Shown here piece by piece: positions 5,678 to 45,151 of a stretch of DNA of 64,000 nt. The notes beneath the pieces are model-generated. The model worked only from the letters and a program-made list of their open reading frames with translations. It was not told the DNA's origin and ran no database searches. Numbering within the stretch: the first letter of the stretch is position 1; the number at the start of each line of letters is the position of its first letter. The stretch spans positions 1,837,501 through 1,901,500 of the forward strand of contig NZ_CP119421.1 of the NCBI RefSeq assembly GCF_030506305.1. The letters are read 5' to 3'. A program made the position numbers and the translations under genes. Source of the stretch: Porifericola rhodea. Lineage in GTDB: Bacteria > Bacteroidota > Bacteroidia > Cytophagales > Cyclobacteriaceae.

Positions 5678-6658
5678 ATGTTAAGCAATCAGCAGCGAAA
5701 TATGAGAAACAAGCCGATACAAGTAAATAAGCTTCATAGCCTGCAAGGGCACAAAGACTGTGTATACGCGCTAAGTAATGGACCTGATAATAATATTTTT
5801 TTCTCAGGTGCAGGAGATGGTATGGTAGTACAGTGGAGTTTAGAAGACACATCTAATGGCAGAATAATCGCGAAAGTACCCACTTCAGTATATGCTTTAT
5901 ACTATGAGAAAGAAAGAGGAAATCTAATAGTAGGCCAAAACTATGAAGGTATTCATGTGATAAATATGCATACCAAACAAGAACTGGGTTCCGTTAAGAT
6001 AACGAGCTCTGCCATCTTTGATATTAAAGTCTATCACGAAAATATTATTATAGCCGCGGGAGATGGCTCTATTACAATAGTGAGTTATCAAAAATTAAAA
6101 GTATTACACCAGATAAAAGATAGCCATAAAAGTGCTCGTAGTATTGCTATCAACCCCGTGGCAAAAGAAATGGCGGTAGGTTACAGCGATAATAAAATTA
6201 GAGTATATGACTTAGAAAGCTACAAGCTAAAGTATGAGGTTGAGGCGCATGATAACTCTGTATTTACGCTCAGCTATAGCCCCGATTATCATTGGCTATT
6301 GTCTGGTAGTAGAGACGCTCACCTTAAGATATGGGACGTTAACGAACACTATCAACTACATGAGTCAATTGTAGCCCATATGTACTGCATTAACAACATA
6401 ACATATAGCCCTGACGGTAATTACTTTGCAAGTTGTAGTATGGATAAGTCAGTAAAAGTGTGGGATGCCAAACAGTTTAAACTTTTAAAAGTAATAGATA
6501 AAGTCCGGCACTCAGGGCATGCCACATCGGTAAATGCTTTAATATGGAGTGAGTATGTAGATGCACAAAAGCAAAATCCGTTGATTTCTGCGAGCGACGA
6601 TAGAAGCATTTCCGTCTGGCAACTGGATTTGTACAAAAAAGAGAACAATTATCAGTAA
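5678..6658 (+). CDS. WD40 repeat protein
   Basis: A 326-residue cytoplasmic protein made almost entirely of WD40 repeats; no signal peptide or catalytic domain is seen. Repeats are recognised by GH...D...WD spacing, for example LQGHKDCVYAL near the start, KIWDVNEH in the middle, VKVWDAKQ later and a terminal SVWQL. About six or seven blades are expected, consistent with one beta-propeller. Such proteins are protein-protein interaction scaffolds; the partner here is unknown. The ATG at 5678 gives the longest form, but an in-frame ATG at 5702, nearer the first repeat, is equally plausible. Confidence 0.85.
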   Translation: MLSNQQRNMRNKPIQVNKLHSLQGHKDCVYALSNGPDNNIFFSGAGDGMVVQWSLEDTSNGRIIAKVPTSVYALYYEKERGNLIVGQNYEGIHVINMHTKQELGSVKITSSAIFDIKVYHENIIIAAGDGSITIVSYQKLKVLHQIKDSHKSARSIAINPVAKEMAVGYSDNKIRVYDLESYKLKYEVEAHDNSVFTLSYSPDYHWLLSGSRDAHLKIWDVNEHYQLHESIVAHMYCINNITYSPDGNYFASCSMDKSVKVWDAKQFKLLKVIDKVRHSGHATSVNALIWSEYVDAQKQNPLISASDDRSISVWQLDLYKKENNYQ

Positions 6659-6752
6659 ATTAAAAGCAAAATATTGCTTAATCGCATTAATGATAAATAT
6701 TATGTCCGTTATGACTGCTATGGCAGTTTGAGACAACTAAACTCCCTAACTA

Positions 6753-7511
6753 ATGAAAATTACGCCCTTAGAAATACGACAAAAAGACTTTGAGAAAAAC
6801 TTTAGAGGTTACGATAAAGATGAAGTGAATGCCTTTCTTCAAACACTTTCACAGCAGTGGGAACGCATACTAGAAGAGAACAAGGAGATGAAATACAAGC
6901 TGGAGTCTTCACAAAAGGAGGTAGAAAAACTACGAGAGGTAGAAAGCTCACTTTTTAAAACACTAAAGACTGCAGAAGATACCGGGGCAAATATGATTGA
7001 CCAGGCCCAAAAAACAGCTGATCTAAAAATGAGGGAAGCCAAACTTGAGGCAGATACCATCATCGGTAATGCACACTCTAAAGCAAAAGACATACTGAGC
7101 AGAGCAGAGTATAAAGCGCAAGCCATCATAGATGCGATGGAAGAGCGTGTAAAGATGCTGAAACAGAGCTATAAAGCAGCGGAGAACGATTACGAAAGTC
7201 TACTTTTTGAACTTAAAAGTCTGGCACAGAAAACGTTGCAAAAAGTGGACAAGGCCGAGGCTCAGCAGAGATTTAATATAGACGCAAAGGTAGAAGAAGC
7301 AGAAAAAATAGTAGAAGAATATAACGAGTTTCTGGCAAGGCAAAAGGAAGAAGCTATACAGCAAGAAGCAACTTCTTCTGCCAGTAAGCCAACTATTGAA
7401 GAAAGCACAGATTCCCCCACAGAATCAGCAGCGCATAAAACAACTTACGAACACTCAGCCCCTCCCAGAGAAGAAAAGAAAGGCGGTTCTTTTTTTGACA
7501 ATATAGATTGA
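6753..7511 (+). CDS. DivIVA domain-containing protein
   Basis: This 252-residue protein starts with the DivIVA/GpsB lipid-binding motif (MKITPLEIRQKDFEKNFRGY, then DEVNAFL) in residues 1-30, followed by long coiled coil from about residue 35 to 200 and a low-complexity Ser/Thr/Glu tail. DivIVA proteins bind curved or polar membrane and recruit cell-division or envelope-growth factors; the partner here is not known. It leads a compact operon with folB 8 bases downstream and the ChaN-like gene after it. The co-transcription with a folate gene is probably organisational rather than functional. Confidence 0.88.
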   Translation: MKITPLEIRQKDFEKNFRGYDKDEVNAFLQTLSQQWERILEENKEMKYKLESSQKEVEKLREVESSLFKTLKTAEDTGANMIDQAQKTADLKMREAKLEADTIIGNAHSKAKDILSRAEYKAQAIIDAMEERVKMLKQSYKAAENDYESLLFELKSLAQKTLQKVDKAEAQQRFNIDAKVEEAEKIVEEYNEFLARQKEEAIQQEATSSASKPTIEESTDSPTESAAHKTTYEHSAPPREEKKGGSFFDNID

Positions 7512-7519
7512 CATTATGT

Positions 7520-7876
7520 ATGGGGAAAATAGAGTTACAAGGGCTGGAGTTTTTTGCCTATCATGGTTTTCATGAAGAGGAGCGTAAAATAGGTAATCGT
7601 TACGAAGTGGATATTAAAGTAGAAACGGACTTTGATAAGGCTGCTGCAGACGATATGCTAAAACATACCGTAGACTATGGCCAGTTGTATAATATCATAA
7701 AGGAAGAAATGGAACAGTCTACTAAGTTACTTGAAAGGCTAGCTGGAAGAATTGCGGAGCGAGTATTCAAAGAAATTTCAGTAGTAGAACGGCTGGAGGT
7801 TAGTATTTCCAAACTAAATCCCCCCTTAGGAGGTTTGTGCAAAAAAGCTAAAGTAAGCTTACATAAAAGTAGATAG
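7520..7876 (+). CDS. folB: Dihydroneopterin aldolase
   Basis: The 118-residue enzyme would cleave 7,8-dihydroneopterin to 6-hydroxymethyl-dihydropterin and glycolaldehyde in folate synthesis. Typical features are FFAYHGFHEEER with the catalytic-site Glu, the VDYGQLY segment that contributes to the pterin pocket, LERLAGRIAE, and the C-terminal VSISKLNPPLGG with the conserved lysine. Length matches FolB. The ATG at 7520 is chosen over an upstream TTG at 7508 that overlaps divIVA, since family members start with the MGKIxLxGLEFFAYHG block. Confidence 0.93.
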   Translation: MGKIELQGLEFFAYHGFHEEERKIGNRYEVDIKVETDFDKAAADDMLKHTVDYGQLYNIIKEEMEQSTKLLERLAGRIAERVFKEISVVERLEVSISKLNPPLGGLCKKAKVSLHKSR

Positions 7877-7879
7877 AGC

Positions 7880-8749
7880 ATGAAAGCCTTGTTGTTGATT
7901 CTTATGGTCTTCGGAATAACTGTGGACAAACCTACTTATGTTATTTATAACGAAAAGGGCAAATCTGAAGACTACGATAAAATGGTTAAAAAACTTAGCC
8001 AGGCTGATGTTGTGCTGTTTGGTGAATTGCACAACAATGCATTGGCTCACTGGCTTCAGCTTCAACTCTTAAAAGACTTACAAAAAGAGGGAAACACCCT
8101 TGTGCTTGGAGCAGAAATGTTTGAGGCAGATAATCAGATAATAATTGACGAATATCTGGCGGGCCTTATAGAAGCAAGACACCTGGAAAGCGAAGCCAAA
8201 ATTTGGGATAATTATAAAACGGACTACAAACCCCTATTAGAGTTTGCTAAAGAACACCAGCTGCCGTTTGTAGCTACCAACATACCTCGTCGGTATGCAA
8301 GCCTCGTAGCCAGGCAGGGCTTAGACAGTCTGAAAAACTTAACGGAAGAAGCTAAATCTTATATGGCTCCACTCCCTATAGTGATAGATATGGAGCTGCC
8401 CTCCTACCAAAATATGTTAGAAATGATGGGAGGGGGCAAGAACTCCTCCCAACACAATGGCATAGGAGCCGAAAATATGGTAAAGGCACAAGCTATAAAA
8501 GATGCTAGCATGGCTCATTTTATTCTTCAAAATCTGGAAGAAGAAAGTACCTTCCTGCATTTTAACGGCTCTTATCACTCAGATAATTTTGAAGGAATTT
8601 ACTGGTACTTGCAACAAGCCAATCCTAATCTAGATATTGTCACTATTAGCACCAAAGAGCAGGAAGATATAAGTCAGTGGAATAAAGATTTTGAAAATGT
8701 AGCTAACTATATTATTAGCATACCAACAGATATGACAAAAACGTATTAA
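7880..8749 (+). CDS. ChaN-like haem-binding domain protein
   Basis: A 289-residue protein with a short N-terminal hydrophobic segment (residues 1-15) suggesting export. The rest matches the ChaN/DUF399 fold: VVLFGELHNN near residue 48, LGAEMFEADNQ, a DYKPLLEFAKEH block, FVATNIPRRYA and the C-terminal HFNGSYHSDNFEGI. In Campylobacter, ChaN binds stacked haems and acts in iron uptake; here no TonB receptor or haem transporter is adjacent, so the role is unproven. It starts three bases after folB and is the last gene of that operon. Confidence 0.82.
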   Translation: MKALLLILMVFGITVDKPTYVIYNEKGKSEDYDKMVKKLSQADVVLFGELHNNALAHWLQLQLLKDLQKEGNTLVLGAEMFEADNQIIIDEYLAGLIEARHLESEAKIWDNYKTDYKPLLEFAKEHQLPFVATNIPRRYASLVARQGLDSLKNLTEEAKSYMAPLPIVIDMELPSYQNMLEMMGGGKNSSQHNGIGAENMVKAQAIKDASMAHFILQNLEEESTFLHFNGSYHSDNFEGIYWYLQQANPNLDIVTISTKEQEDISQWNKDFENVANYIISIPTDMTKTY

Positions 8750-8765
8750 AGAGAGGTTTGTGTCC

Positions 8766-9200
8766 TTACTGTACCTCATTCAGAAAAGCTACCTTAGCTT
8801 TAGCCAATATCTCTTCATGGTCAAAAGCCAGTTCCGGTAGTTCATTCAAGTTAAACCATTGGGTGGCGGCAGCATCAGAGGCTGCCTCCGGCGAAACAAG
8901 TTTAGCATCTACCTGGGTATAATACGAAACTGAAATTGCTCTGCCCCGAGGATCTCTGTCCGGCTTTCCAAATGTATAAAACTGCTGTATCTGCTCTACC
9001 TTAATGCCGGTTTCCTCTTCTAGTTCGCGGGCTGCAGCCGTATCCAAGTCCTCATCATCTTCTACAAAACCTCCTGGAATAGCCCACTTACCCTGAAATG
9101 GATCGTTCTTTCTCTGAATTAGCAATACCTGTAGTTCTTTATCATGATAAGCAAAAACTACAGCGTCTACAGTTACTTTAATATTTTGAGGATACCCCAT
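8766..9200 (-). CDS. Nudix hydrolase
   Basis: A 144-residue cytoplasmic Nudix enzyme. The Nudix box Gx5Ex7REUxEExGU is complete: GFVEDDEDLDTAAARELEEE followed by TGI, at about residues 44-66. It is preceded by the WAIPGG core. Members hydrolyse nucleoside diphosphates linked to another moiety; substrate cannot be read from the sequence. It converges with the ChaN-like gene, with 16 bases between stops. Confidence 0.9.
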   Translation of the reverse strand: MGYPQNIKVTVDAVVFAYHDKELQVLLIQRKNDPFQGKWAIPGGFVEDDEDLDTAAARELEEETGIKVEQIQQFYTFGKPDRDPRGRAISVSYYTQVDAKLVSPEAASDAAATQWFNLNELPELAFDHEEILAKAKVAFLNEVQ

Positions 9201-9372
9201 AACATAAATGTGATTACAGATACAAATTAAAAATTACCTAAATGTAAGAGCTAGTTAATAAGGCAATAAAAAAAAGAGTGGATTGTTGAAGACAAAAGAA
9301 AAAAAATTAATGTGCCGTGATCTACCAATGTCATCTAGAAGAAATAGGGGTAAAATTCCCCAAGAAGGTGGA

Positions 9373-9618
9373 CTAATTGTCCTTAAATTCTACATAAGCA
9401 TCACAGCTATTGGGAGTTAGTGTGTGGTAAGGTATAGGTTGTAAATTGTCATTTGAGCTATTTATTTGATGTGTGACCTCCTTTTGCGTAGCTATTTTTT
9501 TGTCATCTTCATCTTCGCAAGATAACATAAGGCCAAGTAATAGCGCATAAAAGCTAAAAGTTAGTAGTAGAGAGAAAGAGTGTTCGTATATTCTATTATA
9601 AAGATTTTTGCTTTTCAT
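9373..9618 (-). CDS. Small predicted lipoprotein of unknown function
   Basis: An 81-residue protein on the minus strand with a hydrophobic segment ending in the lipobox-like LGLMLSC, then a charged, low-complexity tail (CEDEDDKK). It would be membrane-anchored by a lipidated cysteine after signal peptidase II cleavage. The first 21 residues of the longer frame overlap the IscA-like gene and are omitted; from the ATG at 9618 it still overlaps that gene's end by 23 bases, suggesting translational coupling. I do not recognise a family, and the gene could be spurious, although the lipobox argues for it. Confidence 0.55.
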   Translation of the reverse strand: MKSKNLYNRIYEHSFSLLLTFSFYALLLGLMLSCEDEDDKKIATQKEVTHQINSSNDNLQPIPYHTLTPNSCDAYVEFKDN

Positions 9619-11072: not shown

Positions 11073-11684
11073 ATGAATTCAGTAATCACGCAGAAGCACA
11101 TAGATAGAGCTATGTCTTACGACCAGTATTTGACTTTAGTAAAACAACTACTGGATGAAAATAGAACAACGGGCAATAACCAAAGCCCGGCTATGCTGGA
11201 ATATACCAAGTTAAATGCTCAGCGCATGCGCCGACTTAATAAGACTATTGTGCTGGACGATCTGCTGGTAGAAAAGTTGAAATCTTCTTTTGAGCCACAG
11301 ATATGGCTGGTTGTTACCGAAGCTTGGTGTGGAGATGCAGCACAAAATATTCCTTTGCTGGCTAAAATGGCTGAACAAAGTGAAAATATTGATCTTAAGT
11401 TAATCCTTAGAGATGAGTATCCGGAAGTAATAGATGGCTATTTAACAAACGGAGGACGTGCAATTCCAAAACTGATTAGCCTGACGTCACAATTGGAAGA
11501 GATAGGCAGTTGGGGGCCACGCCCCCAAATAGCTCATCAACTGGTAGCTACTTATAAAGCAAACCCTGATGTTGATAAAAAAGTGTTTAACGAGGCAGTA
11601 CAGGGCTGGTATGCTAAAGATAAGACCAAAAGTATGCAGCAGGAGTTTATTATGCTCCTGGATAAATGGCTGAAAAAAGTTTAA
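11073..11684 (+). CDS. Thioredoxin-fold protein with AWCGD motif
   Basis: A 203-residue cytoplasmic protein. The central region has WLVVTEAWCGDAAQNIP, a thioredoxin-like active-site loop with one cysteine (C-G-D instead of CXXC), followed by DEYPEVID and a cis-Pro region GGRAIPKLI. These match the Bacteroidota and Firmicutes thioredoxin_9-like group; without the second Cys, ordinary disulfide exchange is not expected. The ATG at 11073 is preferred, since a longer frame from 11019 would overlap the YkvA gene. The stop (11682-11684) lies 6 bases before the TTG start of the next gene. Confidence 0.78.
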   Translation: MNSVITQKHIDRAMSYDQYLTLVKQLLDENRTTGNNQSPAMLEYTKLNAQRMRRLNKTIVLDDLLVEKLKSSFEPQIWLVVTEAWCGDAAQNIPLLAKMAEQSENIDLKLILRDEYPEVIDGYLTNGGRAIPKLISLTSQLEEIGSWGPRPQIAHQLVATYKANPDVDKKVFNEAVQGWYAKDKTKSMQQEFIMLLDKWLKKV

Positions 11685-11690
11685 GCTAGT

Positions 11691-12722
11691 TTGGACTCAC
11701 TTACACAAGCTGTACTAGGTGCTACAGTAGGCGAACTGGTACTAGGCAAAAAAGTTGGCAATAAGGCTCCCCTTTGGGGGGCCATAGCCGGTACCATACC
11801 GGATCTAGACGTTCTGCTAAATTTTTTTGTTAGAGACGTACAGAGCACACTCTGGCATCGTACATTTTCGCATTCATTTATCTTCCTTACTCTTGCAGCG
11901 CCATTACTGGGGTATCTCGTTTATTACTTACACAGAAATTCAACATCCGCCAGCCCTATAGATTGGTTCTGGCTATTTTTCTGGGGATTAATCACACACC
12001 CTTTATTAGATAGCTGTACTAATTATGGCACAATGCTCTTTTATCCGTTTAGTGATTTTAGAGTAGCCTTTCGTACAATATACATCATTGACCCCTTATA
12101 TACCCTTCCATTGCTTGTAGCTACAATAGCTGTGTTGTTTATGAGAAGGAATTCCAGAACAAGAAAAAATACGGCACGTCTGGCTATCATACTTAGTACT
12201 GCCTACCTCCTACTAACTTCAGCTAATAAGCTATATGTCAACCATGTAGTAAAGCATAGCCTTGAAGAACAGCAGATAAGTCATGAGAAATTTATGAGCT
12301 CACCCACCTTTTTTAATAATTTGTTATGGTCGGTAATTGTAAAAAGCGGCTCAGATTATTATGTAGGCTATTACTCAATTTTAGATAATAAGAAGCAGAT
12401 AGATTTTAATAAGATTAGCCAACAAAAAGGTATGCTTTTGCCTTATTTACAGAAGGCGAAGGCAGAAGACCGTCAACTCATTCTGGAGCTTTTAGAGTTT
12501 ACCGAGTATTTTTATCTGCTTGAACCTGTAGGCGATAAGTTAAACCTTTACGATTTGAGGTTTGGTAAGCTTAGTGGATGGTTTGACGATGCCCAAAACT
12601 ATATTTTTACTTTCAGCATCAACTCACAGGAGGAAGAGCTTAGGATAGAAAGAGTAGATGCTAAGCTTGAACTACAAAGAGAAGATTTTTTACGTCTGCT
12701 AAAACGAACCAAAGGAAACTAA
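11691..12722 (+). CDS. Membrane-bound metal-dependent hydrolase (YdjM/DUF457 family)
   Basis: A 343-residue integral membrane protein beginning MDSLTQAVLGATVGE, the usual family N terminus. Metal-binding motifs are visible: DLDVLLNF near residue 38, WHRTFSHSF near 57, and HPLLDSCTNYGT near 103. At least four transmembrane segments precede a soluble C-terminal domain. The start codon is TTG: an in-frame TAA at 11682-11684 lies two codons upstream and no ATG lies near, so TTG is the only start that yields the conserved N terminus. The family (YdjM, LexA-regulated in E. coli) is thought to be a phospholipase-like hydrolase, with substrate unknown. Confidence 0.85.
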   Translation: MDSLTQAVLGATVGELVLGKKVGNKAPLWGAIAGTIPDLDVLLNFFVRDVQSTLWHRTFSHSFIFLTLAAPLLGYLVYYLHRNSTSASPIDWFWLFFWGLITHPLLDSCTNYGTMLFYPFSDFRVAFRTIYIIDPLYTLPLLVATIAVLFMRRNSRTRKNTARLAIILSTAYLLLTSANKLYVNHVVKHSLEEQQISHEKFMSSPTFFNNLLWSVIVKSGSDYYVGYYSILDNKKQIDFNKISQQKGMLLPYLQKAKAEDRQLILELLEFTEYFYLLEPVGDKLNLYDLRFGKLSGWFDDAQNYIFTFSINSQEEELRIERVDAKLELQREDFLRLLKRTKGN

Positions 12723-38643: not shown

Positions 38644-39903
38644 ATGAAAAAGCGACCAAAGCTTAGACACACAGAGCAGGCCAAAACAAGCAGAAGAACT
38701 TTGAAAAGAAGCCGCACTACAGGAAGAAGAAGCCGAAGACGGGGTAATACTCAAGATAATGCGAAACAGGCAAACCAGCAGCTGAGCAGGTTCAAACAGG
38801 CTTCTATTGTGGCTTTTGCCTTTACCATGCTATTGCTCATGGTATTTCCCGGGGGAGAGGCTGCGCAAATTAACAGCGATAGCATACCCACCGAAACAGA
38901 AAAGTCTGTAGCAGAAATAGATAGTGCAGATTTAACGGTAAATACCAGTGCTGCAGCCGGAGAAGCTATTGATACAGTGCGTTCACTTTGGGGCGACTTT
39001 TATAGCAATCTACCCAAATTACTCATAGCTATACTCTCACTGTTGATCGCCTGGCTATTATTAAAGCTAATACGTCCCATACTGCGTAGATTAACTCATC
39101 ATTGGAATATCTCTTCGGCAATTATTGCAGTAGTTTCCATTTCGGTCTGGCTACTGGCCGCAGGCGTAGCCCTGAGTGTGCTGGCAGGGGACATTCGTGC
39201 ACTGGTAGGCTCGGTGGGTTTAGTCGGCTTGGCCTTATCCTGGGCATTGCAAACGCCTATTGAAAGTTTTACAGGCTGGCTGCTTAACTCTTTTCAGGGT
39301 TATTATCGGGTGGGTGACCGAATAGCGGTAGGTGAGATTTTCGGAGATGTGTATCAGATAGATTCTCTAACAACTACCGTATGGGAGATTGGCTCCCCTG
39401 ACCAGCCCGGAGCAGTGCAGGCAGAGCAGCCAACTGGCAGACTGGTTACTTTTCCGAATAACGAAATACTTACCGGTACAGTCATCAACCTAACGCGCGA
39501 CTTCCCTTTTGTTTGGGATGAACTGGCCATACCTGTAGCCAATGAGTCAGATCTACCACTCTCTCTGGAGGTAATACAGAATGTGGCTAATCAGTTATTA
39601 GGAGATTATATGCACCAACCGGCTAAAGAATATGCGGCTACATTAAAGCGAGCCAATATTGAAGAAGAAGTAGCAGAGAAACCTCAGCTTTTTGTCTCAG
39701 CCACAGACTCCTGGACAAACATTACCATTCGCTATCTGGTAGCTGCTAAAACCCGTAGAAAGTGGAAAAGTGAGCTACAGATAGCTATAAGCAAAGAGTT
39801 AAATTTGGATAAGTACCAAAAAAAGATTATACCTGCCTATATCCGTCAGCAATACCAGCAGATTAATCCGCAGGGCATACCCATTGCTCCCAAAGGGGAG
39901 TAG
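38644..39903 (+). CDS. MscS-family mechanosensitive channel with basic N-terminal tail
   Basis: A 419-residue channel. The first 45 residues are unusually rich in Arg and Lys (KRPKLRHTEQAKTSRRTLKR), then a TM segment (50-70), a periplasmic stretch, two more helices near 120-180 and an MscS core: VGLVGLALSWALQTPIESFTG, GWLLNSFQGYYRVGDRIAVGE, GDVYQIDSLTTTVWEIG and PTGRLVTFPNNEI. Its job would be osmotic release of solutes. The basic tail resembles a nucleic-acid or phospholipid contact and is not seen in the other MscS protein at 26050. It is not in an operon. Confidence 0.87.
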   Translation: MKKRPKLRHTEQAKTSRRTLKRSRTTGRRSRRRGNTQDNAKQANQQLSRFKQASIVAFAFTMLLLMVFPGGEAAQINSDSIPTETEKSVAEIDSADLTVNTSAAAGEAIDTVRSLWGDFYSNLPKLLIAILSLLIAWLLLKLIRPILRRLTHHWNISSAIIAVVSISVWLLAAGVALSVLAGDIRALVGSVGLVGLALSWALQTPIESFTGWLLNSFQGYYRVGDRIAVGEIFGDVYQIDSLTTTVWEIGSPDQPGAVQAEQPTGRLVTFPNNEILTGTVINLTRDFPFVWDELAIPVANESDLPLSLEVIQNVANQLLGDYMHQPAKEYAATLKRANIEEEVAEKPQLFVSATDSWTNITIRYLVAAKTRRKWKSELQIAISKELNLDKYQKKIIPAYIRQQYQQINPQGIPIAPKGE

Positions 39904-40062: not shown

Positions 40063-41283
40063 ATGGCAAATTGTTTTGCATTATTAGGTTGGAGTTTACC
40101 TGTCATAGAAAGTATGCAAAAGCTCAACAAACCTTTTGTAGTCGTATCCTTCCCCGACTTTGAGTCTTATGCCCAGGAAAACAATATTCCGTTTGTTTCC
40201 TACCAGTTTGACGAATGGAGCGATACCTCAAACTCTATTGACCTGGCAGAGAAACTTCAGCCATTTAATGCGGACGTAGCGGTACCTTTGTTTGAAGAAA
40301 CCGTAGAGTGGGCGGGTGCTCTAAACTCTATTTACCGTGGAGACCCCAGAGTTCTTAACCGTGCTTTTCTCTTCCGTAATAAAGCCATGATGAAACGTAA
40401 AGCACTAATTGGAGGACTTAAAGTAGGCTTTTTTGAAGAGGTGTACAATCGGGAGCAGGTACGTCAGTTTATGAAAAGGCTCAACGAAGCTAACCTGCAA
40501 GTAGCTGGAGAAGAAGATAGCTGGGTACATTTAAAGCCTTTTGCTTCGGCAGGTACCGTAGGTCATCGCCTGCTACGCTCTATGTCCGATATAGACGAGA
40601 AAGTAGAGGATAGCGATTTCCCCTGCCTGGCAGAAAGCCACTTAAGCGGTAGAGAGTTTTCTTGTGAGGCTTTTATCCACAAGGGCAAAATCAGGTTCCT
40701 GAATATTACAGAATATGTAAAGCTGGGCTATTCTAACTTTGTGCCGGAAGGGCGCTATCTGGAAAGTAAACGCGAGCTAATCCACAAGCATGTGCAAAAG
40801 CTGGTAGATATTTTTGGTATTGAGTATGGCATGATTCACCCGGAATGGTTCCTTACTGATGAGGACGAAATGAATTTTGGCGAGGTAGCCTGCCGTATAC
40901 CAGGAGGGCACATATTGGAACTGGCCGCAAAAGCTTATGACTTTGACGCTCTGGCTGCCTTTGTGCTTTGTCATGATCCAAATATAAGTGAGGAGGAATT
41001 AGATGCTGTATTTCCTCCTAAAGACCACAAGCCAGAAACATATTATGGCAATGTAATGATCTATCCTCGTAAAAACGAGATATCTAAGCTGGAAATACCT
41101 GATGAGCTAACCGAAGAGCCCTACTTTATAGACCATAATCTGGTGCCGCCCCTGAGTTCTCAGAAAATCAATTCACGCGAAGGGTTTGGTAATCATTTTG
41201 GTACAATTAATTTTCGCGGAGAAGACCCCGATCGTATGGCAGAGTTACTTAAACATTACGAGAATGTGGACTTCTATTTATAA
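40063..41283 (+). CDS. ATP-grasp ligase, first gene of an unrecognised operon
   Basis: A 406-residue ATP-grasp protein. Early Rossmann-like part (1-110) with ALLGWSLPVIESMQKL, then the grasp region: VHLKPFASAGTVG (P-loop-like ATP contact), PCLAESHLSGREFSCEAF, EYGMIHPEWFLTDEDEMNFGEVACRIPGG with the Mg-binding Glu-rich block. ATP-grasp enzymes join a carboxylate to an amine or thiol through an acyl-phosphate. Substrate unknown. It is 8 bases before the 665-aa gene, which overlaps an alanine-racemase-like gene; together they suggest a D-Ala-type or peptide ligation pathway, by inference. Confidence 0.85.
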   Translation: MANCFALLGWSLPVIESMQKLNKPFVVVSFPDFESYAQENNIPFVSYQFDEWSDTSNSIDLAEKLQPFNADVAVPLFEETVEWAGALNSIYRGDPRVLNRAFLFRNKAMMKRKALIGGLKVGFFEEVYNREQVRQFMKRLNEANLQVAGEEDSWVHLKPFASAGTVGHRLLRSMSDIDEKVEDSDFPCLAESHLSGREFSCEAFIHKGKIRFLNITEYVKLGYSNFVPEGRYLESKRELIHKHVQKLVDIFGIEYGMIHPEWFLTDEDEMNFGEVACRIPGGHILELAAKAYDFDALAAFVLCHDPNISEEELDAVFPPKDHKPETYYGNVMIYPRKNEISKLEIPDELTEEPYFIDHNLVPPLSSQKINSREGFGNHFGTINFRGEDPDRMAELLKHYENVDFYL

Positions 41284-41291
41284 CCATTTGA

Positions 41292-43289
41292 ATGCAAGAA
41301 ACTATTTCTACTGTACATAGTATAGACAAATTTCAAAGCTCTTTTCAGGAGTTTCTGGAAGCCAGTGAGCTTACCAGAGCAGATAAGGCTAACAAGCTTT
41401 TAAGTCAGGTTGATATGCTCAGCCTGACTTTTGAGGGTATAGCACATTTGTATACCAAAATAGGAGCGCTGGAGGAAGCAGGCATATTTAAAGATACTCC
41501 CTGGAATGAGCCTAAGCGTTTGGTGCCCACTCTGGTAAAGGGCACCTTAAAGAGCGGTCACCCTAATTCTTCTACAGAGCTACTTAGTGAGCTTCGTATA
41601 CTGGGCTATGCCCGGGGCGAAATTCAGTCTTCATTAATAAGTCAGGAAGAAGCTGCTGCTTTTTTAGAAGAGGTGTTGGTACACAATCTGGAGTTTGTCT
41701 TTCAGGAGCCTACCGAAGAGACTCGCATAAATTTGAGTGAGCGTGAGCTTAAAAAGATAAGCTTACTTTTTAAATTTTTGCTGGAGCACTCGCGCCTGGA
41801 AGGTATCAAAGAGAAGTTAGCAGAAGAGATTACCATTATTTGCGAACAGCGCCCCGTAGTTACCAGGCCCGCCCGTGAGATTATAAGTCTGGTCAAAGAG
41901 AAAATGGATCTCAGTTCCGACTCTGAAAGTGATCGCATACTAAAAATGTATGTTGATGAACTTTATGCCCCCTCTGCTGCTACCCGTGAGCACCAGACTA
42001 CTGAAGCCTATGAGCAGTTTCTCAAAGAGGCTAGCGCTGATATGCTGGCTCGTGAGTCTTACGAACTAGGAAATGCCATGCGCTCTCATGGTTTGGTAAG
42101 TAACTTCCACGCGAGTTTGCTACTGCACTTGGTAGCACAGGAGCAGGATGATCTGGTACCTGCCGCCCTTAAACTTAACGATACCGGAGAGGCAGAATGG
42201 TATCACCACAAAAAATTTGTAAGAAAACTTTTTCGCGAGGTTATTCACCCCTACAATGCGCAGTGTATTTACGGCTTTGCCAAAATGCTGGAGAAGGGCC
42301 TTTTCTCTCGTCAGGCAGTTAGAGCCGGCTTAGATAATATGCGACGTATGAGGCTGCATAGCAAAACGGAAGAGGCCATTAGGCAGTCTATAGTGCAGAA
42401 GCATCCGCAGGTAAATGCCTTACAATACCTTATCGGTGCGCTTATCCGAATTTTGGGGCAACCCCTTGGCGTAGGGCAAGGTAACAATCCTACCTGCCAG
42501 TCGGCCCGGGGTATTAGTATGTGGAGTCAGCATGCCCCTGCCAAACTGATTAATCTTGTAATAACGGCAGCTACGCAAAATAATATCGTATTCCGTTTTG
42601 AAGGTAAAGAGCTGGAATCCAGCCTTCTGGGCAAAGGCTTGGTAGAGAACCTGGACTATAACCTGGATGCTGTATCAGTCATTTTGGTCCCCAATCTGGA
42701 TAAGGTATACAATGAGATGATGCGCCTGGCTACCGGACGTACAGAAGATCCGCACAAATGGGTGAATCCTGCTTTATATGGGCAGTGGATACAAATTGGT
42801 TTTGCCTCGGTATACAACTATCTGCTCAATGCCATCCACGATTTTAAAGGCTTTCAGAAAGTTCTATATGCCTCTTGCCATCCCGACTACAATGGAGGTC
42901 AGAGGTTAGTGTACCCCAACCCGGTAGGTATTTATATTACCTCCTCAAGGGGAGATATGCTGGGTTTTCATGCGGTATCGCTTTTAAGAGTGCGCCGCGA
43001 CCCTCAGGGTGCGATGCGAGCCTACTTCCTCAACCCCAACAATGAAGGCCGGCAGGACTGGGGGCAGGGTATAAAACCGTCGGTATTTGGGCATGGTGAA
43101 AAGCATGGAGAGTCTTCTCTGCCTTTTTATCAGTTTGCTTCCAGGGTATATGCCTTTCATTATAATAGTTTAGAAACCAAAAATTGGATAGACAAGGTGC
43201 CAGAAGATGAAGTGGCTAAGGTAGAAGAGCTAGCCCGCGAGAGTTGGGGGCGTGCCTATGTCTGGAACGAAACACCAAAACAATGGTAA
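41292..43289 (+). CDS. Large protein with papain-like active-site pattern, function unknown
   Basis: A 665-residue cytoplasmic protein that I do not recognise. The first 380 residues are helical and acidic with no known motif. The C-terminal third shows Gln396 six residues before Cys402 (GQGNNPTCQSARG), His560 (MLGFHAVSLLRV) and Asn581 (YFLNPNNEGRQDWG). That order and the Gln-Cys spacing of six fit a papain-like (Gln, Cys, His, Asn) catalytic set as in C39, transglutaminase-like or amidase folds. A role as a peptidase, amidase or acyltransferase is inferred. Its gene sits between the ATP-grasp gene and, with a 7-base overlap, the racemase gene. Confidence 0.6.
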   Translation: MQETISTVHSIDKFQSSFQEFLEASELTRADKANKLLSQVDMLSLTFEGIAHLYTKIGALEEAGIFKDTPWNEPKRLVPTLVKGTLKSGHPNSSTELLSELRILGYARGEIQSSLISQEEAAAFLEEVLVHNLEFVFQEPTEETRINLSERELKKISLLFKFLLEHSRLEGIKEKLAEEITIICEQRPVVTRPAREIISLVKEKMDLSSDSESDRILKMYVDELYAPSAATREHQTTEAYEQFLKEASADMLARESYELGNAMRSHGLVSNFHASLLLHLVAQEQDDLVPAALKLNDTGEAEWYHHKKFVRKLFREVIHPYNAQCIYGFAKMLEKGLFSRQAVRAGLDNMRRMRLHSKTEEAIRQSIVQKHPQVNALQYLIGALIRILGQPLGVGQGNNPTCQSARGISMWSQHAPAKLINLVITAATQNNIVFRFEGKELESSLLGKGLVENLDYNLDAVSVILVPNLDKVYNEMMRLATGRTEDPHKWVNPALYGQWIQIGFASVYNYLLNAIHDFKGFQKVLYASCHPDYNGGQRLVYPNPVGIYITSSRGDMLGFHAVSLLRVRRDPQGAMRAYFLNPNNEGRQDWGQGIKPSVFGHGEKHGESSLPFYQFASRVYAFHYNSLETKNWIDKVPEDEVAKVEELARESWGRAYVWNETPKQW

Positions 43290-44440
43290 AGCACTCTTCA
43301 AGAATTTTACTGAGTCAATCCGCATTTAAGAATAACCTTAATTTTATCAAGAAAAAGACAGGCGCAGGGGTACGCTTTTCTTCCGTAGTAAAGGCCAATG
43401 CTTATGGCCACGGTATAAAAGAGTTTGTGCCAATGGCAGAAGCCTGTGGTGTCAGACACTTCTCGGTAGCTTCTGCTTTTGAGGCAGAAGAAGTACTGGA
43501 AAGCATAAATAAAGGCTCAGGGATTATGATTATGGGTATCTTGTACGAAGATGATATCCCCTGGGCTATAGAACATGATATAGAATTTTATGTCTATAAC
43601 TACGACCGGCTCGTCAAAGCTCTGGAAGCAGCCCAGAAGCTCAATAAAAAGGCTAAAATTCATTTAGAAGTAGAAACAGGCGCGAACCGCACCGGCCTGC
43701 AGGAAGATGAATTTCCTAAAGCGCTGGACTACATGAAAGCTCATCAGGACTACCTGGTTTTTGAAGGCCTATGTACCCATTTTGGTGGTGCGGAAAGTCT
43801 GTCTAATCAGTTCAAAATAGATCGGCAGCATGCTCGGTACAAGTCATTTTTAAAGCAATGCAAAAGGAAAAAGTTTATGCCTAACTATCGGCATATTGCC
43901 TGCTCAGCAGCAGCTCTTGCCATGAAGGATACCGTATATGACATGGTAAGGGTAGGCGTAGCTCAGTATGGGTACTGGCCCAGCCCCGATATTTACTATT
44001 TGCACCTACAGGAAGTAGACAAAACTTCTGACAAACCGCTTAAACGAATCTTTACCTGGAAAACAGATATCATGGACATTCGCGATGTCAAAGAAGGAGA
44101 GTTTATTGGCTATGGTACCGCTTATCAGGCTGCTCAGGATATGAAAGTAGCAGTATTGCCACTGGGCTACTCTAATGGGTATCCTCGTGCACTATCCAAC
44201 CGGGGGCATGTACTAATCAGAGGAAAGAAGGCTCCTATTGTAGGTTTAATCAACATGAACCTGTTTATGGTAAATATCACTCACATACCTGGTGTTAGCC
44301 TGGAAGATGAAGTAGTATTGGTTGGCAGACAGAAAAACAATGTGATTAACGTAAAGTCATTTACTAACTTTACTCAGTTGGTAAACAACGAAATGCTGAG
44401 CCGCCTGCCGGCAGCTATTCCTCGTGAAATAGTAAAATAA
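43283..44440 (+). CDS. Alanine racemase-like PLP enzyme (stand-alone)
   Basis: A 385-residue fold-III PLP enzyme. The PLP lysine is Lys37 in SSVVKANAYGHG; the catalytic-tyrosine segment GYGTAYQA has Tyr281. The region PIVGLINMNLFMVN aligns with the usual VGxxxMDxxxVD, but with Asn326 where nearly all alanine racemases have Asp. Bacteroidota commonly carry a MurF-alanine racemase fusion, so this stand-alone copy may serve the unusual operon rather than cell-wall synthesis. The start ATG at 43283 overlaps the preceding stop (CAATGGTAA). Substrate other than alanine is possible. Confidence 0.85.
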   Translation: MVKHSSRILLSQSAFKNNLNFIKKKTGAGVRFSSVVKANAYGHGIKEFVPMAEACGVRHFSVASAFEAEEVLESINKGSGIMIMGILYEDDIPWAIEHDIEFYVYNYDRLVKALEAAQKLNKKAKIHLEVETGANRTGLQEDEFPKALDYMKAHQDYLVFEGLCTHFGGAESLSNQFKIDRQHARYKSFLKQCKRKKFMPNYRHIACSAAALAMKDTVYDMVRVGVAQYGYWPSPDIYYLHLQEVDKTSDKPLKRIFTWKTDIMDIRDVKEGEFIGYGTAYQAAQDMKVAVLPLGYSNGYPRALSNRGHVLIRGKKAPIVGLINMNLFMVNITHIPGVSLEDEVVLVGRQKNNVINVKSFTNFTQLVNNEMLSRLPAAIPREIVK

Positions 44441-44536: not shown

Positions 44537-45151
44537 ATGAGAGCGTTTGCCTTAAAATTGATGTTGAGCACAGCACTGATAATACCCTGGAGCTGTGTGG
44601 AAGATGATTGCGGTGGCTTACAAAACCAAAAGATCAATACAGTTGGAATAACAGTGAATAATACCCTGCTTCTGGAAGGAGGCTATAGTATAGAGAAACA
44701 ACTTGTGGCAGAAGAAAAGGTGAGCTATAAGCGCTTTGGTCTTCAGGTTTTGCCAGAGGTAGCTTATCTTAGTATGGTCAAGGATAAGTTAAAAAGCTCG
44801 TTTATTTCTGCTGCTTATGCTTGCTCTCCTATGTCTGTATCTACAGAAGAGATAGAGGATATTGCTATATTTAGCGATGAAGACTACATACAGAAGAACA
44901 GCCAAAAAATAATTGTGGCCGGCGACACTTTAAATAGTCTATTTAATATCTATGATTATAATAGCGGGCGTATTGTAGGTTTACCGGATTTTCTAATGGA
45001 TGAAGGCCTGGAGGCATCCGAAGAGGGCTTTATACTTCAGCCAGCAGTAGCACCAGAGCAGGAGCAGAAGCACGAGTTTACAATTCATTACCGCCTCACG
45101 AATGGTGAGTATTATGAAGTAAGCGCAGAGGCTATCATATTACAGCCTTAA
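44537..45151 (+). CDS. Predicted lipoprotein of unknown function
   Basis: A 204-residue protein whose N terminus has a short signal and a cysteine in TALIIPWSCVEDDCGG near residue 20, a plausible lipobox. The mature part is mainly beta-rich, with IYDYNSGRIVG and HEFTIHYRLTNGEYYEV, and has four further cysteines of which two are close to the lipid Cys. No enzyme motif is present. It has a Bacteroidota surface-lipoprotein look. The neighbours (racemase upstream, broken cupin downstream) do not inform function. Confidence 0.68.
   Translation: MRAFALKLMLSTALIIPWSCVEDDCGGLQNQKINTVGITVNNTLLLEGGYSIEKQLVAEEKVSYKRFGLQVLPEVAYLSMVKDKLKSSFISAAYACSPMSVSTEEIEDIAIFSDEDYIQKNSQKIIVAGDTLNSLFNIYDYNSGRIVGLPDFLMDEGLEASEEGFILQPAVAPEQEQKHEFTIHYRLTNGEYYEVSAEAIILQP

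Follow-up and report, generated by a model that had tools for sequence, protein, structure and literature searches.

A conserved operon of a putative ATP-grasp ligase, a probable papain-like protein and an alanine-racemase relative, with a lead to ornithine

The window analysed here, 64,000 nucleotides of Porifericola rhodea (contig NZ_CP119421.1, positions 1,837,501 to 1,901,500), carries a three-gene operon on the + strand of its open-reading-frame list. The genes encode a putative ATP-grasp ligase (GRASP, 406 residues), a protein of a nameless family (P665, 665 residues) and a relative of alanine racemase (ALR, 385 residues). The trio is a real and widespread gene set of which we found no description; its kind is known, an ATP-grasp ligase pathway, to which an unnamed and probably papain-like family is added. 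A lead to the substrate comes from argJ-type ornithine genes, with which the trio co-occurs in the order of the window. We read the set as a cytoplasmic small-molecule pathway that would consume free ornithine and make an amide or peptide product, perhaps a compatible solute, and put this reading just short of even.

40063..41283, + strand: GRASP, putative ATP-grasp ligase resembling L-amino acid ligases; HPE (residues 259-261) and GEVACRIPGG (273-282) correspond to the metal/nucleotide region of the family
41292..43289, + strand: P665, nameless family; helices from residue 1 to ~370, predicted papain-like domain at ~376-625
43283..44440, + strand: ALR, fold-type III pyridoxal phosphate racemase of 385 residues with an altered pocket; Lys37 and Tyr277 kept

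The listed racemase frame opens at TTG 43244, and family conservation begins at ATG 43283. With ALR taken from this ATG, the packing is as tight as the first-pass annotation had described it, with a gap of 8 bases between GRASP and P665 and then a 7-base overlap of P665 and ALR.

Conservation and spread of the gene set

We compared 46 loci (L008-L053), 43 of them from a scan of GTDB contigs and L008-L010 from a sample of the phylum Bacteroidota. GRASP lies directly 5' of P665, on the same strand and in the same order, in 45 of the 46; the count includes L048, with a 40-residue end of GRASP only, and L008, where the first 36 residues are missing, both at locus ends, and L041 is a locus that starts inside P665. 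ALR lies directly 3' of P665 in 43 of the 46, again in strand and order, and is absent from an Oligoflexia bin (L042) and from two Neobacillus loci (L051 and L052). In 35 of these 43 loci (with starts picked by a script) the ALR frame starts before P665 has ended, and in L011 the match is split in two pieces. The adjacency of the trio is not chance. Its absence from every other genome had been set beforehand as what would refute the first-pass annotation, and these 43 loci speak in favour of the finding. The named relatives are Cytophagales and other Bacteroidota, and of the P665 proteins fetched the nearest comes from Fulvivirga aurantia (65%).

P665 was found in 4/395 genomes of the phylum sample, 4/241 genomes of the window's order, 47/299 genomes of the order of Neobacillus terrae and 1/58 genomes of the phylum of the Oligoflexia bin. 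A further 21 loci were taken, 20 picked from 18 of the 47 P665-bearing genomes in the order of Neobacillus terrae and one from Halomonas; P665 has GRASP next to it in 20 of them and ALR in none. The pair without ALR is kept in Bacilli, soil bacilli among them, in Halomonas and in one Oligoflexia bin. GRASP and P665 are thus the core of the set, and ALR is an addition of the Bacteroidota. The earlier view of the trio as a unit thus holds for the conserved operon and fails for ALR as an essential part, since ALR is absent beside GRASP-P665 in all 21 further loci (one of which also lacks GRASP). The spread beyond Bacteroidota was missed at that stage, as were the ornithine genes and the ablB-type acetyltransferase described below, because other genomes are needed to see them. 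GRASP and P665 diverge in step, with a Spearman coefficient of 0.94 over 946 pairs from 44 loci, to which shared descent also contributes.

P665 copies that stand apart from GRASP were seen at L106, L130 and L154. The first (7536-9527 of its locus, in a Bacilli genome) has beside it genes that look like levansucrases. The second (5871-7853, genome G475) is a distant relative (39%) with neither GRASP nor ALR in the 19 kb taken, from a genome that has argC and argJ. Directly 3' of ALR in four loci of Marinoscillum and Ekhidna (L013, at 11140-11982, L016, L019 and L036) lies a 280-residue protein of no clear family, with a weak match to DUF6377.

Other roles for the genes were tried. A defence system was set aside, as PADLOC has no match for GRASP, P665 or ALR. 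Mobile cargo was likewise rejected: there was no phage match and none of 13 pattern matches in viral contigs was confirmed; the plasmid records gave one match in 72,556, a plasmid-labelled Halomonas. Rfam found nothing at the trio genes in eight Bacilli loci, eight Bacteroidota loci and the window, and riboswitch control was dropped; promoter-like and terminator-like sites are at chance level. Searches of the Creative Commons-licensed papers of PMC turned up none describing the trio; subscription journals lie mostly outside this set, so that the search is no proof of absence.

The three proteins

GRASP scores 22.5 bits against Pfam PF13535, under the cut-off of 27. With a profile built from 20 GRASP sequences the first match is 4wd3, an L-amino acid ligase, at an E value of 1e-10, followed by 4dim and 3vot. 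The protein carries the conserved H-x-E and G-E-x-x-x-R-x-x-G-G region, and His259, Glu261, Gly273, Glu274, Arg278, Gly281 and Gly282 are invariant in the 20 sequences and align to 4wd3; their roles would be those of the ATP-grasp family. GRASP is best regarded as a putative ATP-grasp enzyme that keeps the expected residues.

P665 has no family match in Pfam (best E value 0.17), NCBIfam, PADLOC or PHROGs, and none among PDB sequences, whether searched as a single sequence or as a profile. An AlphaFold model made with 32 family members has a mean predicted local distance difference test score (pLDDT) of 88.0 and a predicted template modelling score of 0.80; it is helical to about residue 370, with a mixed domain after that. 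The sites that the model and the alignment point to are as follows.

42417..43166, + strand: predicted papain-like domain of P665, residues 376-625; model pLDDT 88.0 for the whole protein and 84.8 for the domain alone; calpain cores at the top of the second-look matches (Z 7.2)
42477..42497, + strand: codons Gln396 to Cys402, proposed oxyanion Gln and catalytic Cys; invariant in 32/32 sequences
42969..42971, + strand: codon of His560, proposed catalytic His; invariant in 32/32
43032..43034, + strand: codon of Asn581, proposed catalytic Asn; invariant in 32/32

In papain the Gln stands six residues before the Cys, as Gln396 does before Cys402, and the order is Gln, Cys, His, Asn. In the model a helix opens at Cys402, His560 lies within a strand and Asn581 follows the strand after that, which is the papain order. 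A pattern for the Cys motif matches 46 of 48 P665 proteins, and the two misses differ beside the motif and keep the Gln and the Cys. Foldseek returned nothing at an E value of 0.001 or less, either for the whole of P665 or for the domain alone. A second-look aligner, given the whole protein, put calpain cores first (6bkj, Z 7.2, r.m.s.d. 4.5, 202 residues, spanning model residues 360-624) and listed staphopain and bleomycin hydrolase further down, amid helical-repeat proteins; for the domain folded alone (pLDDT 84.8) most matches were papain-like enzymes, with Z no higher than 5.2. Matches of Z 7.2 and 5.2 are weak and would not settle the fold by themselves; the invariant Gln396, Cys402, His560 and Asn581 in papain order add to the case. 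We describe the C-terminal domain as probably papain-like, with a candidate catalytic site on which conservation and model agree, in line with the first-pass annotation, which had called the protein papain-like. The helical part gave no convincing known fold with the second-look aligner on the whole model, and the start of P665 has no evident signal sequence (no signal-peptide program was used).

ALR contains PF01168 and PF00842 and scores 279.5 bits against TIGR00492, the alanine racemase model (cut-off 168). These matches and the 4wd3 profile agree with the earlier family calls of a racemase and an ATP-grasp enzyme flanking a protein of no known family. The catalytic Lys37 and Tyr277 are kept. 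Glu129, Thr137, Asn326 and Asn369 of ALR correspond to alanine-racemase positions 129, 137, 313 and 354. The first three residues are the same in 15/15 family members; at position 354 there is Asn in 13 of the 15 and Ala in two (L036 and L039), never Tyr. PMC3485190 gives Tyr354 as strictly conserved among alanine racemases, with Asn in its place in the serine racemase VanT and Thr or Ala in racemases for lysine or of broad specificity. Two VanT sequences that we fetched have Asn at 354 and Asp at 313; the NCBIfam vanT models match ALR at 228.8 bits at best, under the cut-off of 460, and the 385 residues of ALR comprise the racemase domains only. ALR is thus an alanine-racemase relative with a changed pocket, and because the pocket residues depart from those of alanine racemases, alanine is doubtful as its substrate.

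The genome of the window has another long racemase frame of 827 residues (L001), which is probably a MurF-Alr fusion. With this racemase present and the pocket residues different, plain D-alanine supply by ALR was set aside; of the D-amino-acid source proposed in the first-pass annotation, the racemase stands and the D-alanine is doubtful. A second racemase in the same genome (L002, also at 9287-10474 of L117 and at ~1,114,000 of C1) is 57% identical to ALR and has the same changed pocket; it stands away from any GRASP or P665.

Ornithine genes and the proposed pathway

An argB-argD-argC-argJ cassette follows ALR in seven loci, with one extra gene in between in L013, L016 and L019 and none in L046, L047, L049 and L119. 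In genome G227 argJ lies just 5' of the trio, and Neobacillus cucumis (L052), whose genome holds two argC and two argJ over cut-off, has argC-argJ-argB flanked by two P665 copies. Within the window's order argJ is present in 6/241 genomes, and all four P665 genomes are among the six (hypergeometric 1.1e-7, with kinship not corrected): the trio and argJ co-occur in this order. In the phylum sample all four P665 genomes match argJ, G104 weakly (3.2e-9). Of the 40 GTDB-scan loci that are neither Bacilli nor Oligoflexia, 32 were tested, and argJ was found in 28 of these 32 P665-bearing genomes; this count includes G991 and G1002, where it is in pieces, and G987 (L018), whose argJ coordinates are the same as those of G605 and which is probably the same genome. 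Of the six trio-bearing Bacteroidota tested for argC, five carry two copies over cut-off (G605, G624, G625, G626 and the window genome, G000, which is one contig of 5.49 Mb). Neighbour clustering placed an ordinary Bacteroidota arginine cluster near the trio in ten Cyclobacterium-type loci; in the two inspected, L020 and L034, it is 5' on the opposite strand.

Most Bacteroidetes make arginine through succinylated intermediates, according to PMC7311316. That route would leave free ornithine off the path, so that ArgJ would be a supplier of free ornithine. Bacilli, with Bacillus subtilis as the control, have ArgJ as part of their ordinary arginine synthesis, which would explain why the pairs there usually stand alone. 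We hold the ornithine part of the reading to be slightly better than an even bet.

The hint of an osmolyte comes from other neighbours. In four Bacilli loci (L095, L101, L104 and L107, of which L095 and L101 look like close relatives) a GNAT_ablB gene lies directly 5' of GRASP on the same strand, at 236-247 bits against a cut-off of 205.1 (TIGR03827); in L051, L052, L093, L094 and L109 another, divergent GNAT gene lies beside GRASP. Many hosts from the GTDB scan are marine or from saline lakes, in part by their record titles. A channel gene precedes the trio in the window:

38644..39903, + strand: MscS-family channel (Pfam), directly 5' of GRASP, 159 bases before it

An MscS gene also lies directly 3' in L035, after argJ in L119 and, on the opposite strand, near P665 in Halomonas; a link of the channel in the window to the trio is possible. 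PMC11337218 describes kamA-ablB of Methanoperedens as preceded by an MscS gene, PMC4187189 has Halobacillus halophilus making N-delta-acetylornithine with an acetyltransferase that it calls unidentified, and PMC1224877 names neutral peptide osmolytes. The osmolyte part we place on the unlikely side.

The pathway that we propose would begin, in Bacteroidota, with ArgJ-type genes, which are present and would supply free L-ornithine. GRASP may then use ATP to activate a carboxyl group for coupling to an amine, with ornithine and another amino acid as the most likely partners; its residues and its likeness to L-amino acid ligases suggest this step. Through Cys402, His560 and Asn581, P665 could transfer, cyclize or cleave the amide so formed, acting on a small substrate. 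ALR would supply or invert a D-amino acid in Bacteroidota, probably not alanine, and in one clade of Bacilli the gene order suggests that an AblB-type enzyme might acetylate an amine of the product. A soluble ornithine derivative is the most likely product, and a compatible solute is plausible. In its boldest form, which we consider rather unlikely, this would be an undescribed compatible-solute pathway of marine and saline Bacteroidota and many Bacilli: its neutral ornithine-derived amide or peptide would be acetylated in some hosts and carry a D-residue in others, its makers would be an ATP-grasp ligase and a new family of papain-like enzymes that build or rearrange the amide and do not cut protein, and the extra ArgJ would feed it.

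Besides the weak fold matches, several observations pull the other way. No argJ was found in four of the 32 P665 genomes (G989, a Marivirga bin; G994, Marivirga sericea; G1000, Ekhidna lutea; and G1004, a bin), two of which, Marivirga sericea and Ekhidna lutea, are isolates, and the 28 positives include a weak partial match in G996. G585 (L151) and G612 (L152) have the full argB-argD-argC-argJ cassette without P665. The only argC over cut-off in G403 is that of the cassette, which may therefore belong to ordinary arginine synthesis in that genome. In the genome of the window argJ is ~1.6 Mb from the trio, and the 19.5 kb around it hold argC and argJ only, with no argB or argD (G475 likewise has argC and argJ only around argJ). 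In the phylum argJ is common (155/395 genomes), and its association was tested near the window only. Most Bacilli pairs of GRASP and P665 have no metabolic neighbours. MscS accounts for 3/148 neighbour proteins of 38 loci. None of the 241 genomes of the window's order has ablB over cut-off, and the idea of ablB as a general member of the set was not borne out.

Some of the same evidence would suit other products. The ligase could make a dipeptide with a D-residue or ornithine, which P665 would trim or transfer to give a peptide secondary metabolite, an antimetabolite of the bacilysin or rhizocticin type: the solved relatives closest to GRASP are L-amino acid ligases, a ligase, a racemase and a Cys enzyme suit small-peptide chemistry, and the spread is patchy (4/241 genomes in the order). 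The 25 most frequent of the 227 Pfam families in the 148 neighbour proteins include no typical transporter or tailoring family, however, and most Bacilli pairs stand alone; we find such a metabolite distinctly unlikely. GRASP and P665 might instead form a switch that makes and recycles a store or osmolyte, with GRASP building an ornithine amide and P665 hydrolysing it. The solved papain-like enzymes that P665 matches are mostly proteases, and copies of P665 apart from GRASP (L106, L130 and L154) would fit as well; set against this, the two genes are same-strand neighbours in nearly all loci and their divergence runs in parallel (Spearman 0.94), which a shared synthetic step fits equally well. 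We judge a switch improbable.

The ATP-grasp D-aspartate ligase works with aspartate racemase, a pairing of ligase and racemase that GRASP and ALR repeat, and ornithine is present in some cell walls, so that the set might add a D-amino acid or ornithine to a peptidoglycan precursor. Neither mur, transpeptidase nor any other wall family is among the same 25 most frequent neighbour families, the racemase is not beside GRASP-P665 in any of the 21 further loci and P665 shows no evident signal sequence, on inspection without a signal-peptide program; modification of the wall or envelope is very improbable.

If the ornithine pathway is correct, it would give a role to a widespread protein family that is nameless in four libraries, account for the ArgJ-type ornithine genes of some Bacteroidota that also have arginine genes of their own and supply candidate genes for an ornithine-derived solute. 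It also offers three enzymes for assay: the ligase, the racemase whose pocket is altered and a papain-like one that may form amides. Elsewhere in the window, a 204-residue protein that starts like a lipoprotein and matches nothing in Pfam is encoded on the + strand at 44537-45151, 96 bases after ALR, and the window opens (1-1808) inside a 23S ribosomal RNA gene, followed by a 5S ribosomal RNA gene.

Comparison with known systems

Membership in a known pathway would also have refuted the first-pass annotation; no library names P665, and the searches of the Creative Commons-licensed literature turned up no such pathway, though the making of ornithine by ArgJ is itself established biochemistry. 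The N-acetylglutaminylglutamine amide (NAGGN) set consists of a GNAT-ATP-grasp fusion, an amidotransferase and an M42 peptidase; it likewise uses an ATP-grasp peptide ligase for a small osmolyte and involves an acetyltransferase. No NAGGN model of NCBIfam matches the trio of the window, which holds no GNAT fusion, amidotransferase or M42 peptidase. The routes to N-epsilon-acetyl-beta-lysine (kamA-ablB) and to N-delta-acetylornithine share with the trio an ablB-family gene, which lies by GRASP in four Bacilli loci, the precursor ornithine, as proposed here for the trio, and, in some loci, an MscS neighbour; kamA was not seen at these four loci, no search having been aimed at it. Unlike the trio, neither route has a ligase or a papain-like step.

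With alanine racemase and VanT, ALR shares the fold-type III domains and the catalytic Lys and Tyr, and its Asn at 354 is that of VanT; it differs in Glu at 129, Thr at 137, Asn at 313 and the operon with GRASP and P665. VanT is membrane-bound through an N-terminal membrane part, whereas ALR has no membrane domain. The C-terminal domain of P665 appears to share the fold, and shares the Gln, Cys, His, Asn order, of papain-like enzymes (the calpain core, staphopain and bleomycin hydrolase), and the amide synthetase CcbD is among its papain-like matches at Z 3.8. It is set apart from them by the lack of a sequence match, by the ~370 helical residues in front and by its ligase partner. Like the L-amino acid ligases (4wd3; BL00235, 3vot), GRASP would be an ATP-grasp enzyme, and its region 61-314 matches theirs, including the metal-binding and Arg-Gly-Gly part, although the likeness is ~20% at best and below the Pfam cut-off. 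The L-amino acid ligases have no P665 partner, whereas GRASP is always paired with P665.

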